This document shows positions 40,422-49,718 of a stretch of DNA of 61,904 bases, piece after piece. Numbering within the stretch: position 1 is the first letter of the stretch; the number at the start of each line of letters is the position of its first letter. The translations under genes and the position numbers were made by a program. The notes under the pieces are model-generated. The model worked only from the letters and a program-made list of their open reading frames with translations. It did not search any database and had not been told where the DNA came from. Origin of the DNA: Candidatus Latescibacterota bacterium. Lineage in GTDB: Bacteria > JAAXHH01. The stretch lies in NCBI GenBank assembly GCA_022823465.1, contig JAJEHX010000039.1, positions 1 to 61,904 on the forward strand, given 5' to 3'.

Positions 40422-41801
40422 TCAGTCCGACCGGGCGGTTGCGACGCGGCGCCTGCCCATCCGCCATCGGACGACGATGGCTTCCACGACGAATCCGCTG
40501 TACAGGGCGGCCACGCCGCGGATCGCGCCGTGCAGGTCGAAGAGCGCGAGCACGTTCACGACGATGACAATGGCGCCGGCCCGGGCGGGTCCGCTGGGCG
40601 CAATGGCGCTCGTCCGGTGGTCCCGCAGCGCGATCCCGTGCAGGTAGGAACGGATGGTGACGGCGAGGGGAAAGAAGGAGAAGATGATCAGCGGGACCGT
40701 GCAGCGCACGGCAAAATCATGATCCACGCCGATCAGGGATTCCAGTAGAAAAAACCGCACCGGGGTCCAGAACATCAAGGCCATGGTTCCGAAGGAAATC
40801 AAACCACACACTGCGGTGAACCGGCGGATGATCCGCGCATTGGGGTCCTGACGCTGAAAGGCGGGCGGCAGGTTCTTGAGTTCGTTCAGCCATCCGTAGG
40901 GCAGGTGCGCCAGCGCGTAGACGATCGTAAGCACCGCCAGCGACTCCGTCCCATCGGACCCCCGGGCCACGAACAGGTTGATGATGGGACGGCTCAAGGC
41001 CTGTATGCCGATCGTAACAGCTAGGGGCCAGTAGAACCGCAGCACATAGCCCGCGGTCAGGCGGTTTGGTCTCCGGGAGACCGGCTCACCGCCCGTATTC
41101 TGTCCGATTGGCTCGCCGCCCGCGTTCTGTCCGACCGCTTGCTCCTCTTCGGTGCTCCCGGCCCTGTGCAGCGATCGCCGTGCGAATCGCCGGTAGCCGT
41201 AGATGATCACGGCCAGTTCCGTCAGGACGCCGAAGTAGGTCGCCATGACGGGCAGGAGAATGGGGTCGGCCTGGACGGTCGGCGTCGGCAGGAAAAGGAA
41301 CACGGACACCACGCTCATGCTGATGCCCGCCATCATGGCGTAGCTGACGACGTCGGTCCGCCGTACGCGCAGCAACAACCCCGAAAGAAACCGCGTGATC
41401 CCCACGATCAGCGGAATGGGCAGCAGGAATCCGAGCGCCTTTCGCACCGTGCCGCCCAGGACCGGGTCCACGGCGTGCAGTTCGTCGATCACCCATAGTC
41501 CCACCGGCGTAAAAGCCAGGCACGCCAGGACAAGAAAGTGTACGCCGCCGAACCCGGCGACGCATCGAAAAACCGTGTGGAAAGTCGCCCGGTCCCGGAC
41601 GAGGACCATGGACATCTGCCGGGTCTGGGAGACCGTGCCGGTCAGAAAAGATGTCAGTCCCCAGGCGATTCCGTACGCGGCAAGGGTTTCGGTGGGCCGT
41701 GGCACGCGGGCGATGCCACCGTTGATAACCTGGATGCCCAGTTCATAAATGAGTTCGGTTATGACGAGAGGAAGGAGGAACCAGAATAGGGACCGGTACA
41801 T
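40422..41801 (-). CDS. MATE/ANKH-like multi-pass transporter
   Basis: 459 aa, about 12 membrane helices in two halves. N-terminal half: LLPLVITELIYELGIQVING, ATETLAAYGIAWGLTSFLTG, SYAMMAGISMSVV; a charged loop with NAGGEP/NTGGEP repeats (about residues 215-245) divides the halves; C-terminal half: LAVTIGIQALSRPIINLFVA. The fold resembles the MATE/MOP superfamily and progressive-ankylosis (ANKH) proteins. Substrate unknown. A degenerate fragment of a second copy lies at about 48440-48610, beyond the defence-like island. Confidence 0.7.
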   Translation of the reverse strand: MYRSLFWFLLPLVITELIYELGIQVINGGIARVPRPTETLAAYGIAWGLTSFLTGTVSQTRQMSMVLVRDRATFHTVFRCVAGFGGVHFLVLACLAFTPVGLWVIDELHAVDPVLGGTVRKALGFLLPIPLIVGITRFLSGLLLRVRRTDVVSYAMMAGISMSVVSVFLFLPTPTVQADPILLPVMATYFGVLTELAVIIYGYRRFARRSLHRAGSTEEEQAVGQNAGGEPIGQNTGGEPVSRRPNRLTAGYVLRFYWPLAVTIGIQALSRPIINLFVARGSDGTESLAVLTIVYALAHLPYGWLNELKNLPPAFQRQDPNARIIRRFTAVCGLISFGTMALMFWTPVRFFLLESLIGVDHDFAVRCTVPLIIFSFFPLAVTIRSYLHGIALRDHRTSAIAPSGPARAGAIVIVVNVLALFDLHGAIRGVAALYSGFVVEAIVVRWRMGRRRVATARSD

Positions 41802-41838: not shown

Positions 41839-41890
41839 GTGCGGGGGCTAGCAACAAAATCACTTCGGGTTTCTTTCTGCGCAAACTTTT

Positions 41891-41907
41891 CTGGTTAAAT
41901 TTCCATG
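41891..41907 (+). promoter_or_regulatory. Operator-like motif, copy 1 (upstream of the island's first gene)
   Basis: CTGGTTAAATTTCCATG shares CTGGTTAAATT with copy 2 (42976-42992) and most of copy 3 (43570-43586). It ends about 26 bp before the -10 box at 41934, so a bound protein could overlap RNA polymerase. Confidence 0.45.
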
Positions 41908-41933
41908 GGAGAGGTTACTTTAGATAACCGTTA

Positions 41934-41939
41934 TATAAT
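41934..41939 (+). promoter_or_regulatory. -10 element of the island promoter
   Basis: Perfect TATAAT in an AT-rich context; no good -35 box is seen at 16-18 bp, which would fit an activated promoter. It lies 108 bp before the first gene of the island. Confidence 0.4.
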
Positions 41940-42047
41940 GAGTAAAATGATATTGATAAGTAGGATCTATAAACGGAGTAATTTCAGTGGATCATTCCGA
42001 AGGCGGAGGGCTGGTGTGTAGATGTCTGCCGAACACGAGGAAAACCC

Positions 42048-42983
42048 GTGCATTGTATAGTAGATTTCGCTGCTGATTGGGTTAATGGGAACCGATTTGA
42101 AGCATCGTTACTGGAATCCCGCGGTCCATTTTCCGATGGAATTTACGAAGTTTCCTTCAGATTCCCGACAGGTTGTAAGATTATGGTAGACAGTGCGATC
42201 CGCATACTCTCTCTCGCGAATCAATTGGTCAGTTCTACACGACGCGTCCGAATGTACTTCGAGGAAGGTGAAGCTGGTACGATGGGTTATCTCAATCGAA
42301 TTGGGTTTTTTGACCAATTGCATCCTGAGGTAATGATCTCCCCAGAACGTCCGGCTTACTCAGGCGCACGATTGCATCAAGGACAAAACAAAAAACTGGT
42401 AGAGATCGCTCGCATCAACAAGGATGATCGCGACATTGGACTCCCAAGCAGGCTAGTCAAGGTGATTTCTCGTGTCTGCCAAAATAGGGCTGACGTTGAG
42501 GAACTTTGCCATTCCATATGGACCATATTCTGCGAACTCATAGACAATATATTCGAGCACAGTGCCACTAAGCTAGATGGATATGCGGCATTGCAGACAT
42601 ATATAGAAGGTAACAGGTTATTTGTGGCTGTATCAGACAGCGGCCTCGGTATAATGGAAACGCTACGTCCGACGTTAAAAACACAGTTTCCACAATTAGA
42701 AAAAAAAACTGACACAGAACTCCTCGTGATGATTTTTCGTCAGGGGCTTTCACGTCATGGCGAAGATCGAGGCTGTGGATTGAAGGGCTGTGCAGCGAAA
42801 GCTATCAAATACAACGCGACACTTGATGTCCGACTGCCCAATCAAAGATTGGTCCTTATACCTGCACGAGGTGCTTACGAACCCAATCGGGCCTACTGTA
42901 GTGAGCAACTGCCTTTGGTTTGGGGTACACATATAGGCATCACCTTCAATTTAGGGGTTGACAGGAACGAGGGTTCTGGTTAA
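42048..42983 (+). CDS. GHKL-type ATPase, anti-sigma/histidine-kinase-like, island gene 1
   Basis: 311 aa, GTG start with GAGG seven bases upstream. The N-terminal ~100 residues contain a STAS-like strand-helix unit (RVRMYFEEGEAGTMGYLNRI). The C-terminal GHKL ATPase has the N-box CELIDNIFEHS (E163, N167), G1 VSDSGLGI (D197) and G2 RHGEDRGCGLKGCAAKA. No His-phosphotransfer helix or membrane segment is present, so it is not a classical sensor kinase. It ends with a glycine (NEGSG). With the next gene it resembles ATPase/STAS partner-switching pairs. A sensing or switching role is inferred. Confidence 0.75.
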   Translation: MHCIVDFAADWVNGNRFEASLLESRGPFSDGIYEVSFRFPTGCKIMVDSAIRILSLANQLVSSTRRVRMYFEEGEAGTMGYLNRIGFFDQLHPEVMISPERPAYSGARLHQGQNKKLVEIARINKDDRDIGLPSRLVKVISRVCQNRADVEELCHSIWTIFCELIDNIFEHSATKLDGYAALQTYIEGNRLFVAVSDSGLGIMETLRPTLKTQFPQLEKKTDTELLVMIFRQGLSRHGEDRGCGLKGCAAKAIKYNATLDVRLPNQRLVLIPARGAYEPNRAYCSEQLPLVWGTHIGITFNLGVDRNEGSG

Positions 42984-42992
42984 ATTAATCGG
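42976..42992 (+). promoter_or_regulatory. Operator-like motif, copy 2 (between island genes 1 and 2)
   Basis: CTGGTTAAATTAATCGG, an imperfect inverted repeat spanning the stop codon of gene 1 and ending at the ATG of gene 2 (42993). Gene 2 has no evident Shine-Dalgarno. Confidence 0.5.
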
Positions 42993-43547
42993 ATGAAGCA
43001 GCTAGAGGGTCAGTTTCTACCTCTTGGTAAATTCATGGATCGACCCGAAGGTTGGGGTCGACAACAAGGTCGGACTGTGTACCAGCGACTGTTGCAGTTT
43101 GTGGAAGAAAACCCTGGTTCGGTGATCTTTCTGATCTCGTTGACGGGTGTGCAGCGCATGGACATTTCGTTTGCTTCAGAGGCCATTGTCGAGTTGGTAC
43201 TTCGATTTCGCCGAAGCAAAGGATTCAGTATCATCGATCCTGTGAATGCGGATCTCACCGAAAATATCGATGCGGCATGCTTGAAAAAAAACCAACCAAT
43301 AACAGTTCTGGAAAACCAACAAATCAAAATGATTGGCCCGAAACCTAGTGAGGGTACGCGTGAGGCACTTGAATTTGTGATGGACCGTCCTTATGCACGT
43401 GCCAGCGATCTAGCAACAGAAGGGGGGGTTTCGCTGAATAATGCCAGTATGAAACTTAAAAAACTCTGGGATCAAGGCTTTCTACTCAGGCAGGAGAAGG
43501 CCTCAGATTCTGGTGGAGTTGAGTTTATTTACTATCGGATCAGTTAG
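42993..43547 (+). CDS. STAS-like (DUF4325-type) and winged-helix protein, island gene 2
   Basis: 184 aa. Residues about 27-105 look like the STAS-like domain DUF4325: VIFLISLTGVQRMDISFASE, then a helix IVELVLRFRRSKGFSIID. Residues about 120-184 look like a winged helix: EALEFVMDRPYARASDLATE, then VSLNNASMKLKKLWDQGF and a basic wing. DUF4325 proteins are commonly encoded next to GHKL ATPases. A DNA-binding regulator controlled by the ATPase is the simplest reading, and the nearby inverted repeats are its candidate sites. Followed by a T9 tract (43548-43556). Confidence 0.7.
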   Translation: MKQLEGQFLPLGKFMDRPEGWGRQQGRTVYQRLLQFVEENPGSVIFLISLTGVQRMDISFASEAIVELVLRFRRSKGFSIIDPVNADLTENIDAACLKKNQPITVLENQQIKMIGPKPSEGTREALEFVMDRPYARASDLATEGGVSLNNASMKLKKLWDQGFLLRQEKASDSGGVEFIYYRIS

Positions 43548-43569
43548 TTTTTTTTTACTCCTGGTTAAA

Positions 43570-43586
43570 CTGATTAAATTAATCAG
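43570..43586 (+). promoter_or_regulatory. Operator-like motif, copy 3: perfect inverted repeat before island gene 3
   Basis: CTGATTAAATTAATCAG has 8-bp perfectly complementary arms around one base. An additional half site CTGGTTAAAC abuts it at 43561-43570. The site lies 96 bp before the chosen start of gene 3. Confidence 0.6.
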
Positions 43587-43681
43587 GATCGGCTAATTAG
43601 GCGTGTTGTATGACGTCGTTTACAACACTCACATGGATGATATTCAAGATCCCACAGGGACATAAACACAGAGAGGTTGAG

Positions 43682-44827
43682 ATGACTGCGAAGATTACTT
43701 TCCACCCACTGGGCAATGCGGATTGTACGCGGCTTGATCTTAGTGACGGACAAAAACTACTTATTGATTTTGCAGATGTTCGAAATCCTAATGATCCGTC
43801 GGATTTGCGCGTTGATCTTGCCAAAGAGTTAACAGACGATCTACGCGCTTCTAAGCGAGACCACTATGATGTAGTGCTTTTTACTCATTTGGACGACGAC
43901 CACTGCCATAGTGCATGTGATTTCTTCTGGCTTGATCATGCGATCAAATATCAAGGTGCAGGACGAGTGAAGATCCGAGAGTTGTGGGTACCAGCTGCAG
44001 CGATTCTGGAGGAGGGATCCAAAGACAGTGCCAGAGTAATCCGACAGGAAGCACGTTACCGATTAAAGAAAGGGAATGGCATCCGAGTATTTTCACGGCC
44101 CGAAAAACTGAAGGACTGGCTGGCGGAAAACGGTCTATCGCTCGAATCGCGTAAGCATCTAATTACTGATGCTGGTCAGTTCGTTCCCGGTTACTCAACG
44201 GATCGTCCGGAAAAAGTAAAATTCTTCATACACAGCCCATTCGGTTGGCGCCAAGACGAAGAAGCAATAATCGACCGAAATCAGGATAGCGTGGTTTTTC
44301 AAGCAACTTTCATGGAAGGACATCGGGAAACACATGCGATGTTTATGTCGGATATTGACTATGAATCGATCGATCAGATTGTCGAGACTACAAAGCGGCA
44401 TAGAAACACGGAGCGGTTGCTTTGGGATGTCTTTAAAATACCACATCACTGCTCCTACTTGTCCATCGGACCGGAAAAAGGAGATGAGGAAACCAAGCCT
44501 TCAGCAGGAATGAAATGGCTTTGTGAGACTCAGGCGCGAGTACGCGGTGTTATGATGTCTACAAGCGATTCGATTCCTGTTAAAGGGAGCGATGAAGATA
44601 ACAATCCACAACCTCCTCATCGGCAGGCAGCAGCCTACTACAAGCGTGTGGTCAAGATGATTGACGGGACTTTCAAGGTTACGATGGATTTGCCTTCCCC
44701 GAGAAAGCCGAAACCCTCAACAATCGAAATCACTTCCCGAGGTGCAACTCCCCTTGGTGGTTCAGTAATTGTAGGTGCTTCTAACGTTACAACTTCCACA
44801 ACTAGAGCCGGATCGGCCGCGAAATGA
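43682..44827 (+). CDS. ComEC-like metallo-beta-lactamase-fold hydrolase, island gene 3
   Basis: 381 aa from ATG 43682 (GAGAGG five bases upstream); a longer frame to 43610 is possible. It starts with the fold's first strands, ITFHPLGNADCTRLDL, and has the metal motif LFTHLDDDHCHS (H69, D71, D73, H74), a later MFMSDIDYE aspartate and FKIPHHCSYLS. The H-x-D-x-D-H form and the K-x-P-HH-x-S block are typical of ComEC/Rec2-type hydrolases, here without membrane domains. The last ~40 residues are a Ser/Thr/Gly-rich flexible tail ending AGSAAK. Possible nuclease or phosphodiesterase. Its stop overlaps the next ATG (ATGA). Confidence 0.8.
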   Translation: MTAKITFHPLGNADCTRLDLSDGQKLLIDFADVRNPNDPSDLRVDLAKELTDDLRASKRDHYDVVLFTHLDDDHCHSACDFFWLDHAIKYQGAGRVKIRELWVPAAAILEEGSKDSARVIRQEARYRLKKGNGIRVFSRPEKLKDWLAENGLSLESRKHLITDAGQFVPGYSTDRPEKVKFFIHSPFGWRQDEEAIIDRNQDSVVFQATFMEGHRETHAMFMSDIDYESIDQIVETTKRHRNTERLLWDVFKIPHHCSYLSIGPEKGDEETKPSAGMKWLCETQARVRGVMMSTSDSIPVKGSDEDNNPQPPHRQAAAYYKRVVKMIDGTFKVTMDLPSPRKPKPSTIEITSRGATPLGGSVIVGASNVTTSTTRAGSAAK

Positions 44828-47082
44828 AACTACATAATTGGTGGAATGATTTTGGAAAGGAACTCAGTGATCCTGATAAACTGAGTTCCGACTTGGCGAA
44901 AGAACTGGTATCCCAAGTGACTAACTACGTAGTTCCTGGAGTTAATATCGTTTCACTGCGACAGTCTGCAGCGATGGGCTGTTCGGGTGTGTTCATAAAC
45001 ATTGAAGTGGAGCGCCCACAGGATCTAGCCTATCCTATACAAGCAGTCGAACCCATCGCTGTTATTTTACCGTTCGATAAGAGGCAACCGAGCGTTCTGA
45101 GTTTGCGTGAAGATTTTCCAGATACACCCCATCAAAATTGGGTTCCATCGGGTAAACCACGAGCGCTGTGTATTGATGATCGTCCTTGGGAGGAGGCTCG
45201 TCTGACTGCTACTGGATTCGACATTGTACGAAGGATTCAGGTTTGGCTTTCTAATGCATCACGGGGAGAACTCCACGATACGGCTCAACCTCCCGAACCA
45301 TTGTTTTTTTTCTCAGCCCGCACAATCGTCCTTCCCTCTTCAGCCATGATGGAAAACCCAGAACCTGTTGAACTGGTTGGGATTATTCACGAAGACAACC
45401 CCAATTTCGTCTTTACCATAGAGGCAAGTTATGTTGGGGTACCACCCAACATAACTGTTGTCGCAATAAAAGCGCGTCCGCAGGATCAAGAGCGTATACG
45501 TCATATACCGAACTCACTTTCCTCACTCGCATCGGAACTCGAAAATTGTGGAATTGACCTTTACGACAAACTCAAGACCGTATTAAGGAACTGGGCTGGT
45601 ATTGAGGATTCCGAGATTCAGAGGTTATCGACCCGACTGGCTATCGTCGTGACTTTTCCGTTAGCCACGGAACAGCAAGGTCCGGTAAACGATGTTCGTG
45701 CGTTTATTACTGATCAAAGTGCAGGTGAAATTGGTGTAGCATTGGGTGTATTACATACAAATAACAGTAATGTTGGAGACTGTCGTGCGTATATAGCGGC
45801 GATTCCCGTTAGGGAACCGATAAATCAGGAATTACGAGTCGAGTCGGCACAGGTGCATTACCGGGTAAGTCGTGAAATAGCGGCGATGTTGTCGGGGCGC
45901 AAAAAACCAGACAATCGCAGAGCGGTGCTAGTAGGCGCGGGGTCGCTAGGATCACAGCTTTCTTTGAATCTTGCTCGCGAGGGTGCTTTAGCGTGGACAG
46001 TTATAGATTGCGATATACTACTTCCACATAATACTGTACGGCATGCACTTCATTTCGATGACATAGGAACTCAGAAAGCCAATGCACTTGCCAACAAAAT
46101 TAGCGGCGTATTGGACGAAAGAGTAGAACCAATTTGTTGCAACCTGTTTCACCCGGACAGTGGATCGCACGATCGGTTGGAAAAAGCGTTTAAAGATGCT
46201 GAGATCATTATTGACACCTCCGCGTCAGTAGCAATGTCCCGCCACCTGTGTGATCTACACAACGTGCACGCACGGCGTATCTGTGCTTTTTTTAATCCCG
46301 CAGGTACGTCGGCCGTACTAATGGTAGAAAACACTAGCCGCAGTATTACATTAAGGGATCTAGAAGCTCAGTATTATCGAAACTTGATTTGCGACCGACG
46401 TCTAATCCATCATCTGGAGACTGAATATCCTGGAGTACGATACAGCGGCTCGTGTCGATCACTAACAAATCAAATACCTGCAAGTAATGCAGCATTACTT
46501 AGCGCTCTCATTTCGCAGGGAGTAAAACGTGTCTTGGAAACTGAAGACGCATCAATTTCGATTTGGACCTTGAAGGATAATGGTGAAATTGAGTTGGTGA
46601 ATTTCGACGGTACACCGGTAACAATAAAAAGCACCGATGAATGGAAGATCGTATATGATGACGAACTTGTCTCTAATATCATGGCTGTCCGCAGCGAAAA
46701 ACTTCCCAACGAGACCGGCGGAGCACTCCTTGGGATAACGGATATGAATGCCAAGTTTATTCACTTGGTCCATGCTCTATCACAGCCGGAAGATAGTTCG
46801 GGAACTCGGTCGGGTTTCGAACGTGGGGTGTTCGATTTGCGAAATCAGGTTACAAAAGCCATGACCATGACGATGGATCAGGTCAGATATGTGGGTGAAT
46901 GGCATTCCCATCCAGAGGAAGCCTTGGCGACGCCGAGTCCTACCGATCTTGAGCAATTGAATTGGCTGAGAGAGGAAATGGAATTTGAGGGGTTGAACGG
47001 CCTGGTAGCAATCGCTGCTGCAGACGGCTCCTTCTCTTTGGTACTCAGCAGCGATGTACTTGCCGAGGTTAGTCAGAATTGA
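44824..47082 (+). CDS. E2-E1-JAB triple-domain ubiquitin-like conjugation protein, island gene 4
   Basis: 752 aa. Residues about 1-160 match prokaryotic E2 domains: LREDFPDTPHQNWVPSG, KPRALCIDDRPWEEARLT with the candidate catalytic Cys116, then WLSNASRGELHDTAQPPEPL. A linker domain spans about 160-360. The ThiF/E1 domain (about 363-575) has AVLVGAGSLGSQLSLNLA and VIDCDILLPHNTVRHAL, with Cys544 in YSGSCRSLTNQIPAS as the likely E1 cysteine. The C-terminal JAB/MPN peptidase (about 612-750) has NETGGALLG (E630) and GEWHSHPEEALATPSPTDLE (H694, H696, D708), a complete JAMM zinc site. It combines Cap2- and Cap3-like activities in one chain. Confidence 0.88.
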   Translation: MKLHNWWNDFGKELSDPDKLSSDLAKELVSQVTNYVVPGVNIVSLRQSAAMGCSGVFINIEVERPQDLAYPIQAVEPIAVILPFDKRQPSVLSLREDFPDTPHQNWVPSGKPRALCIDDRPWEEARLTATGFDIVRRIQVWLSNASRGELHDTAQPPEPLFFFSARTIVLPSSAMMENPEPVELVGIIHEDNPNFVFTIEASYVGVPPNITVVAIKARPQDQERIRHIPNSLSSLASELENCGIDLYDKLKTVLRNWAGIEDSEIQRLSTRLAIVVTFPLATEQQGPVNDVRAFITDQSAGEIGVALGVLHTNNSNVGDCRAYIAAIPVREPINQELRVESAQVHYRVSREIAAMLSGRKKPDNRRAVLVGAGSLGSQLSLNLAREGALAWTVIDCDILLPHNTVRHALHFDDIGTQKANALANKISGVLDERVEPICCNLFHPDSGSHDRLEKAFKDAEIIIDTSASVAMSRHLCDLHNVHARRICAFFNPAGTSAVLMVENTSRSITLRDLEAQYYRNLICDRRLIHHLETEYPGVRYSGSCRSLTNQIPASNAALLSALISQGVKRVLETEDASISIWTLKDNGEIELVNFDGTPVTIKSTDEWKIVYDDELVSNIMAVRSEKLPNETGGALLGITDMNAKFIHLVHALSQPEDSSGTRSGFERGVFDLRNQVTKAMTMTMDQVRYVGEWHSHPEEALATPSPTDLEQLNWLREEMEFEGLNGLVAIAAADGSFSLVLSSDVLAEVSQN

Positions 47083-48314
47083 CGACATCAAGATTGAACC
47101 TAACTTTACTCAAAAGCCGGAAGTTGGGTTGTGATCTGCAATCCCAGTTTGAAGCACGGGCCGACCGAGATGACTTTCTGACTGCTGGGAAGGTAGAGGA
47201 CATTGTCGGACTGAGCCTATCGGGTGGGGGGTATCGTGCGATGGTCTATCACACGGGTGTACTCGTCCGGCTCAACGAACTTGGAATACTGCCTCACATC
47301 CAAGAGATTGGCAGTGTTTCAGGAGGTTCGATTGTGGCTGCAGCACTGGGGCTTGCATGGCGTGACTTACGTTTTAATTCCAATGGATATGCTGCGAATT
47401 TTGTGGAGACATTCGTAAATCCGGTCATACAGCTTGCCGGAATAGGCATCGATACGAGGGCTCTTTTACTAGGCCTTTTGCCAGGGTTGACCGCAGCAGA
47501 AAATGTATCGAATTCATATGATCGATATCTGTTACATGGATCGGATTTACAAGATTTACCGGATAAACCACGATTTACATTTATGACCACAAATCTGCAG
47601 ACAGGAAGTGCATGGCGTTTTGCGAAAGACTACGCAGCTGATCATCGTGTCGGAAAGATCGATAAGCCGGAATTTCGCTTATCGAAAGTAGTCGCGGCTT
47701 CAGCGGCCTTTCCGCCTCTTCTTTCACCGCTTAAATTCTACTTTGAGCCAGGTGTCGTTCATCCCATGGAAGGTACTGACCTGCATCGCTCACCGTTTAC
47801 CGATAGGGCAATCTTAACTGACGGTGGTGTATATGACAATTTAGGGTTAGAGAGGATATGGCGACGTTGTCGTACGGTATTGGTAAGTAACGCAGGGCGC
47901 TTAACTCCTGAAATTGGTGCACCTACCGGGCGTTGGTTAGGCCAGCTATTCCGTACGTTTCATCTTGTTCATCGGCAAGCCGAGGACTTACGTAAACGTA
48001 TTCTTTTCGGCATGCATAATCTCACACAACGTCATGTAGCATTTTGGAGTATCGATACGCCACCTGGGGCATATGGCATATCTGATGCGGTTCCTCTACC
48101 AATGAAGGTTACAGCGGAGGTAGCGAAAATGCGCACGCGCCTAAACCGATTTAAGCCTACGGAGATTCTTTTTTTGTTACAATCTGGTTATGCGGGTGCA
48201 GATGCTTCCCTTCGCTCTCGAAATATGGCTATAAATGAGCCAGCCGCCGACATCGGTAGTCTTACGAAAATATGCAAGGACGTCTTCGGTCATCGCAGTC
48301 TTCAGTGCCCCTAG
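47079..48314 (+). CDS. Patatin-like phospholipase, island gene 5 (probable effector)
   Basis: 411 aa, TTG start overlapping the previous stop (TTGA). Patatin signatures: oxyanion loop GLSLSGGGYRAMVYHTGVL, nucleophile elbow EIGSVSGGSIVAA (Ser81) and the catalytic Asp in ILTDGGVYDNLG (Asp248). No signal peptide or transmembrane helix is evident. In CBASS, patatin effectors (CapV) degrade the inner membrane when activated by a cyclic nucleotide. Here no cyclase is encoded alongside, so the activating event is unknown. Translational overlap with gene 4 argues for one functional unit. Confidence 0.85.
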   Translation: MTTSRLNLTLLKSRKLGCDLQSQFEARADRDDFLTAGKVEDIVGLSLSGGGYRAMVYHTGVLVRLNELGILPHIQEIGSVSGGSIVAAALGLAWRDLRFNSNGYAANFVETFVNPVIQLAGIGIDTRALLLGLLPGLTAAENVSNSYDRYLLHGSDLQDLPDKPRFTFMTTNLQTGSAWRFAKDYAADHRVGKIDKPEFRLSKVVAASAAFPPLLSPLKFYFEPGVVHPMEGTDLHRSPFTDRAILTDGGVYDNLGLERIWRRCRTVLVSNAGRLTPEIGAPTGRWLGQLFRTFHLVHRQAEDLRKRILFGMHNLTQRHVAFWSIDTPPGAYGISDAVPLPMKVTAEVAKMRTRLNRFKPTEILFLLQSGYAGADASLRSRNMAINEPAADIGSLTKICKDVFGHRSLQCP

Positions 48315-48656
48315 GATTGTGTTTCTTGTACTTTTAGAACAAAGAAACACACCATCTCACCATCGTGTTTTGCTCGGAATCGCATATATACACAGCAAAC
48401 CTACCGTTTTATTGGATAGGCCTTCCAGTCCGTCGACTTCGTACCTGATTTCGCTCCCGCTGCTACGTCCGATCGCCTCAGGGCACTCCTCGCAATCGGT
48501 CTGCAAAGTAGGGTCGGCAGGACCACGGCCACCACGCTCATGCTGATCCCGAACATCATGGCATAGCTGAAATGGCCGTCTTCCTAACGCACAAGATACT
48601 TCGTGTGCTACCTTATTAGGGACCACCTCAGGTACAGAACTCCGTATCGCATGAGT
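48315..48656. other. 342-bp right flank of the island
   Basis: Contains no intact gene. The part near 48440-48610 carries a transporter remnant (listed separately). No tRNA, integrase or clear att repeat was found. Confidence 0.6.
48440..48610 (-). pseudogene. Degenerate fragment of a second MATE/ANKH-like transporter gene
   Basis: Minus-strand translation around 48520-48600 gives SYAMMFGISMSVVAVVLPT, aligning with SYAMMAGISMSVVSVFLFLPT of the intact transporter (40422-41801). An in-frame stop lies just N-terminal of it, and the frame later reads RPIARSALRRSD, comparable with RRFARRSLHRAG of the intact gene after an apparent internal deletion. DNA similarity is obvious by eye around CCACGCTCATGCTGAT. 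Confidence 0.65.
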
Positions 48657-49718
48657 TCAGATGTTTAACCGTATCAGCTCGACGGGCGGGAACTGGCTGG
48701 CATAGGCATGGACCGCCGGGGCGCCACCCAGGTGCATAAGCAATACGCGGCTCTCCGGCTCGAACCGTCCCTTGTCTGTAAGGTCGAGCAGGCCGCGGAC
48801 TGCCTTTCCTTCGTAGACCGGATCTGCCATTAACCCTTCGGTGCGCGCCAGGAGGTGGATTCCTTCATAAACGTCTTGAGACGCGACACCGTATGGGTCG
48901 GACGTGGCCGCGGTAATCTCCACGTCGCCGGGGGTGACACGGACCGGCTGTCCAAGCGTCTCCAGCGTCTCGTTCGCCAGGCGCAGCACACGCTCTTTCT
49001 TGATCTCGACCTCGTCATCGTCCGATATGCCGATCACCCGGGTGTCGGATCCCAGCGCGGCGAAACCGGCCACCAGGCCCGACTGAGTGCTACCACTTCC
49101 GGTGCAATGCACCACGTAGTCGAAATGGATGCCCAGGTCCCGAGCCTGCTGCGTGATCTCCGCGGCGCAGGCGACATACCCCATGCTCCCCAACGGATGC
49201 TCCGACGCTCCGCCCGGAATCAGGTACGGCCTGCGTCCCTGCCGGCGCAGGCGTTCGACCAGACCCTCAAGCGGGCTCTGATCCTCTATAGGGCGTTCGC
49301 GTTCGTCGAGGTAAAGTTCAGCGCCCAGAATGCTGCTGAACAGGATATTGCCCACGTGCCGATATCCGGGCCCGGCGTCCCGGGTCCAGCCACAGTGCAG
49401 CAAGGCGCATCGCAGTCCGCATCTAGCCGCTGCCGCCGCCGTCTGCCGGGTGTGATTCGACTGGATTGCGCCCACCGTAACCAGCGTGTCCGCACCGGAT
49501 CGCAAGGCGTCTTCCACCAAGAACTCCAGCTTGCGGGACTTGTTGCCGCCGCCCGCCAGTCCGGTCAGGTCATCGCGCTTGATCCAGAGTTCCGGTCCTC
49601 CCAGGTGTTTGCCGAATCTGACGAGCTTGTGGATCGGCGTGGGCAGCTGAACCAATGGCGCGCGGGGCAGGTCCGGTAACCGGAACAGCCAGTCGGTGAG
49701 ACCGTCTATTTTCGTCAT
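48657..49718 (-). CDS. PLP-dependent ACC deaminase / D-cysteine desulfhydrase family enzyme
   Basis: 353 aa. Fold type II PLP enzyme: ELWIKRDDLTGLAGGGNKSR contains the PLP lysine (NKSRKLE); VGAIQSNHTRQTAAAAA, PYLIPGGASEHPLGSMGYV and HCTGSGSTQSGLVAG are family motifs. Members are D-cysteine desulfhydrases, ACC deaminases or L-cysteate lyases; sequence alone does not separate them here. The upstream ribosome-binding site is AAAGGGAAAG. Just outside the right flank of the island. Confidence 0.85.
   Translation of the reverse strand: MTKIDGLTDWLFRLPDLPRAPLVQLPTPIHKLVRFGKHLGGPELWIKRDDLTGLAGGGNKSRKLEFLVEDALRSGADTLVTVGAIQSNHTRQTAAAAARCGLRCALLHCGWTRDAGPGYRHVGNILFSSILGAELYLDERERPIEDQSPLEGLVERLRRQGRRPYLIPGGASEHPLGSMGYVACAAEITQQARDLGIHFDYVVHCTGSGSTQSGLVAGFAALGSDTRVIGISDDDEVEIKKERVLRLANETLETLGQPVRVTPGDVEITAATSDPYGVASQDVYEGIHLLARTEGLMADPVYEGKAVRGLLDLTDKGRFEPESRVLLMHLGGAPAVHAYASQFPPVELIRLNI

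Follow-up and report, generated by a model that had tools for sequence, protein, structure and literature searches.

Two inverted repeats in an island of a Candidatus Latescibacterota genome are, judged by their recurrence in related loci, real and conserved elements, and very probably they are the operators through which a CapS repressor would hold down its own gene and a 6A-MBL operon until the kinase CapK acts. They lie on the plus strand at positions 42976–43001 (O2; CTGGTTAAATTAATCGGATGAAGCAG) and 43561–43586 (O3; CTGGTTAAACTGATTAAATTAATCAG) of the 61,904-nucleotide stretch analyzed here (the window). A motif noticed in raw sequence would thereby find its place in a circuit whose description is only months old, and the known range of that circuit would grow by one host and by a 6A-MBL operon. 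Moreover, the arrangement of O2 suggests a revised location of CapS binding at its own promoter.

The CapK/CapS circuit was described by Chambers et al. (EMBO J 2026, out June 2026; PMC13373217). CapS occupies its own promoter and a downstream promoter and keeps the anti-phage operon and capS off until CapK senses DNA damage; in the presence of ssDNA, CapK phosphorylates a conserved serine of CapS, whereupon the CapS dimer dissociates and is released. Binding, phosphorylation and de-repression were all demonstrated experimentally in a relative of the window system (PMC13373217). Autoregulation by a STAS-wHTH protein that is itself controlled by a GHKL ATPase, as proposed in the first-pass annotation, is supported, as it coincides with this published circuit, to which the window proteins are linked by conserved residues and a structural match.

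By sequence, the first two genes of the island are a CapK kinase/CapS repressor pair located ahead of an immune operon, in the same order as in the published system: capK (42048–42983, plus strand) is followed by capS (42993–43547, plus strand), whose ATG lies within O2. The predicted CapS matches the solved CapS structure over residues 20–180 (PDB 9z71; E=5.9e-27), which bears out the winged helix noted earlier at the end of this STAS-wHTH protein. The alignment places its phospho-acceptor S59 and its DNA-contact residues N150, K156, G174 and G175 at the published S54, N145, K151, G169 and G170. Likewise, the HATPase_c-containing CapK retains N167 and W11, the counterparts of the GHKL kinase asparagine N218 and the ssDNA-stacking tryptophan W68; K237 of the published protein is replaced by I186 and K239 is without counterpart, both positions being variable throughout the family. 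Candidate CapS sites are found, at the level of sequence, at both the capS promoter (O2) and the downstream promoter (O3). The window system departs from the published one in having a single compound operator between capS and the operon instead of two, in the wide rather than narrow geometry conserved at the capS promoter, and in its CapK, which comprises 311 amino acids, begins just ahead of the STAS-like part and lacks the N-terminal HTH. Since the HTH is dispensable in a reporter assay and missing from an entire CapK clade (PMC13373217), its absence was not taken to exclude membership.

Other regulatory systems have features in common with the pair. CapW/BrxR and CapH/CapP are also repressors beside immune operons that are relieved by a DNA-damage signal, but they belong to other protein families and involve no kinase-phosphoserine step. 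The SpoIIAB/SpoIIAA and RsbW partner switches share a GHKL kinase and a STAS substrate with a conserved serine; unlike these substrates, the window STAS protein has a DNA-binding domain and would act directly on DNA and not via a σ factor. VapKSC, in which a CapS-like protein binds the adjacent VapC toxin, was considered and rejected: gene 2 of the window carries a wHTH domain, and the next genes encode MBL-fold, E2-E1-JAB and patatin proteins.

The island itself spans approximately 6.8 kb (about 41847–48666) and is absent from six congeneric loci; in five of them the gene at 40422–41801 runs on to that at 48657–49718 without it, and in L118 the empty-site sequence resumes beyond the latter gene. 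Among 16 genomes examined from the host phylum, capS is present in that of the window alone. The third and fourth island genes are, by curated NCBIfam cut-offs that both proteins far exceed, members of the 6A-MBL anti-phage system: an MBL-fold protein (43682–44827, plus strand; NF058524.1, 402 bits, cut-off 220), for which the start at 43682 is favored over 43610, and a cap2_3-type E2-E1(ThiF)-JAB fusion (44824–47082, plus strand; NF058523.1, 628 bits, cut-off 320) with Prok-E2_A, ThiF and Prok-JAB domains. Unlike in that system, they are followed in the window by a gene for a patatin-like phospholipase, a probable effector (47079–48314, plus strand; PF01734). Two further features of the island may be mentioned. 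At its right edge, 52 bp (48519–48570) repeat part of the neighboring gene (41296–41347) with 86.5% identity, possibly a relic of an older gene copy or of island insertion. The leader of the MBL gene contains an 8-bp stem (GTGTTGTA/TACAACAC; 43603–43628) with a 10-base loop, which has no counterpart in the ortholog L017.

The three motif strings of the first-pass annotation are present at 41891, 42976 and 43570. That at 43570–43586 (CTGATTAAATTAATCAG) is indeed an 8-1-8 palindrome without mismatch, and a further half-site (CTGGTTAA) adjoins it at 43561, but sites 2 (O2) and 3 (O3) are better described as a 26-bp dyad. The 8-1-8 palindrome was rejected as the basic unit: in the 89 leaders that separate capS from the gene after it, inverted repeats with a total length of 17 are enriched as well (44 leaders), yet the 26-bp dyad is stronger and is general. 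The motif is rare genome-wide. The 3.86-Mb genome contains three copies of its 11-base form, CTGRTTAAATT, all on the plus strand and all in the island; four of the 19 copies of the 9-mer CTGRTTAAA fall within the 1.7-kb motif stretch, as do two of the three places matching the wide dyad TGNTTNA-N10-TNAANCA.

Conservation of the dyad was assessed in relatives of capS gathered from plasmids and genome contigs (102 in genome contigs, 80 kept), in nearly all of which a capK gene lies directly upstream; the distant single-gene hits L012–L016, the fragment hits L099–L101 and also L011, a shorter copy of low identity, were omitted from the counts. A consensus-free search for 8-base inverted repeats found a total length of 26 in 56 of the 89 leaders compared with 12.9 expected from shuffles, and lengths of 25, 27 and 29 in 13 leaders. 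A palindromic matrix trained on the leaders of 88 relatives, with the window excluded, yielded CTGgTTAAAtnAATTnaTTTAAcCAG, a 26-bp palindrome of the form CTGRTTAA-N10-TTAAYCAG. When applied to the window, this held-out matrix ranked O3 first (32.2 bits) and O2 second (30.4 bits), far above the third place (5.1 bits), which argues that both places are operators of CapS. With a threshold of at least 15 bits, the matrix, which had not been trained on capK-capS junctions, detected the dyad in 82 of 87 of them but nowhere in the 84 regions ahead of capK or the 89 control stretches within capS. The relatives are not independent of each other; for the main claim, counts by cluster follow below.

The dyad appears to go together with the repressor. 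Both O2 and O3 are present in all four CapKS-headed MBL operons (window, L017, L034 and L039), scoring 25.5 and 19.7 bits, respectively, in the five-gene ortholog L017. No such operator was found in L132 and L133, where the 6A-MBL operon is headed by a WYL-domain protein and CapKS is missing. This regulator, located upstream of the MBL gene, is divergent and of the CapW kind. The swap of CapKS for WYL on the same operon amounts to a natural control and illustrates that regulators and immune operons behave as interchangeable modules. It is hardly conceivable that the repeats arose by chance in the A+T-rich DNA of the island or that an unrelated host factor binds them. By inspection, the A+T content of the island does exceed that of the flanking DNA, but the held-out prediction, the conservation in nearly all junctions, the rarity of the motif in the genome and the lack of a site where the same operon occurs without CapS all speak against it.

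Site 1 (41891–41898, plus strand), the remaining string, is a different matter. It consists of a lone half-site of 12.9 bits, again CTGGTTAA, upstream of capK, and its role is doubtful. A true operator at this place that also controls capK seems quite unlikely to us, even though 13 bases are common to site 1 and 42974–42986 at O2, the site lies within the island, some 45 bp in from the left border, and with only 15 other copies of CTGRTTAAA in 3.86 Mb a chance copy in 300 bp would be unexpected. Against such an operator stand the lack of a partner half-site at wide or narrow spacing, the absence of any dyad ahead of capK from the 84 loci and from L017, and a position upstream of the predicted promoter elements. 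Furthermore, the published ChIP, which took in 660 bp ahead of capK, showed just two peaks, both of them elsewhere (PMC13373217). Site 1 therefore probably does not belong to the conserved type of operator. Being solitary and without counterpart in relatives, it limits the proposal of a recurrent inverted repeat ahead of each of the first three island genes to two of them, those preceded by the 26-bp dyads of sites 2 and 3.

The geometry of the capS promoter element deserves closer consideration. The palindrome reported for the capS promoter is narrow, TTAA-N1-TTAA, and that for the downstream promoter is wide, with N10 (PMC13373217). In our comparison it is the wide palindrome that is conserved at the capS promoter, which is new and departs from the published description. 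To avoid a bias towards the wide form, partners were counted from nothing but the best forward half-site; 67 of 75 loci then had a reverse half-site at the wide spacing and 11 had one at the narrow spacing (mean over all offsets, 0.73). Grouping of CapS at 60% identity left the picture unchanged (29 versus 5 of 32 clusters). The alternative, in which two CapS dimers bind the published narrow palindrome cooperatively and the wide dyad is incidental, is in our opinion unlikely. It can draw on the published ChIP, fluorescence polarization and logo at the Enterobacter roggenkampii locus (PMC13373217), and the window holds a fair narrow partner (TTAATCGG); the partner counts, however, are against it. 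By its accession, the CapS protein used in that work comes from L009, where the two operator arms are only partly formed. The published probes, too, argue for the wide form: the 24-mer stops short of the wide arm, whereas the 36-mer includes it, and its behavior was that of a wide site (PMC13373217).

The wide second arm falls in codons 1–3 of capS, and the codon usage there also speaks against the narrow palindrome as the operative element. Glutamine at codon 3 is encoded by CAG in 51 of 51 loci, 24.1 being expected from the near-equal use of CAA and CAG elsewhere in the same genes; relatedness makes a formal p-value too small, but the direction of the bias is plain. At 16 junctions with the ATG elsewhere the arm is still there (5.5 to 12.9 bits), which argues against a purely protein-level cause. 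These observations suggest that one operator arm is written within the first codons of the repressor's own gene.

Both window operators contain three half-sites in a 9-bp register. In O2 they start at 42976 (forward), 42985 (reverse) and 42994 (reverse), and in O3 at 43561 (forward), 43570 (forward) and 43579 (reverse), so that the two arrangements are mirror images. The inner forward half-site is present in 38 of the 62 downstream O3B sites of relatives; the compound form is thus not peculiar to the window. Steps of 9 bp would be expected from the alternating interface-1 and interface-2 contacts of CapS in the published filament model (PMC13373217), and by this analogy we infer that the third half-site is occupied. 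Taken together, we regard it as fairly probable that CapKS loci have a wide capS operator with its second arm in codons 1–3, that the third half-site, well formed in both window operators, docks a second dimer via interface 2, and that the narrow mode is accessory. If so, a single CapS dimer would suffice to block both the promoter and the start codon.

The predicted capS promoter (TTGACA-17-TAAATT; 42958–42986, plus strand) has its −10 box within O2. In relatives, 64 of 86 loci have the −35 box at the same spacing to the operator, and 70 of 86 have an ATG at operator position 17; in five of these 70, that ATG is not in frame with the stop codon adopted for capS. A possible promoter of the 6A-MBL operon extends from 43551 to 43579 (plus strand). 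Based on the sequence, the leader logos and analogy with the published system (PMC13373217), its −10 box is probably the inner TTAAAT of O3 (43574–43579), at the center of the operator; a T-run may serve as a weak −35 box.

We propose that in the undamaged cell one CapS dimer would sit on each wide palindrome, whose half-sites are 18 bp apart from start to start. On O2 it would span the −10 box and start codon of capS and on O3 it would cover the leader of the 6A-MBL operon, both promoters thereby being kept low, and a second dimer could join at the third half-site through the other CapS interface. Dissociation of the dimer would then induce capS and the MBL, E2-E1-JAB and patatin genes. Homology makes it plausible that binding, phosphorylation and de-repression proceed in this organism as they do in the published one.

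Relatives display additional features in the leader between capS and the next gene. Two CapS operators, usually 72–77 bp apart, are present in 62 of 89 leaders (L006, L007, L009, L010, L040–L097); the upstream one is not mentioned in the text of PMC13373217. Loci with two operators have a CapK with HTH and those with one, like the window, mostly have a CapK without it (41/1 versus 1/15, 80% clusters). In L041, L060, L073, L087 and others a −35 box (CTTG) is located inside the upstream operator, with a −10 box 17 bp further on, and a terminator-like hairpin occurs just ahead of the second operator in 22 of 47 spacers compared with 5.9 in shuffles. The half-site of O3A and O3B often extends as CTGNTTAANCAG, itself a small palindrome, and a reverse half-site is found at offset 4 in 47 of 62 O3B and 32 of 62 O3A sites; O3 of the window has CTG where the sites of relatives continue in this way. 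On plasmid p1 of Vibrio gigantis (L010), CapK and CapS, with two operators, are encoded behind a restriction system and ahead of SAVED and nucleotidyltransferase genes in a CBASS-like arrangement.
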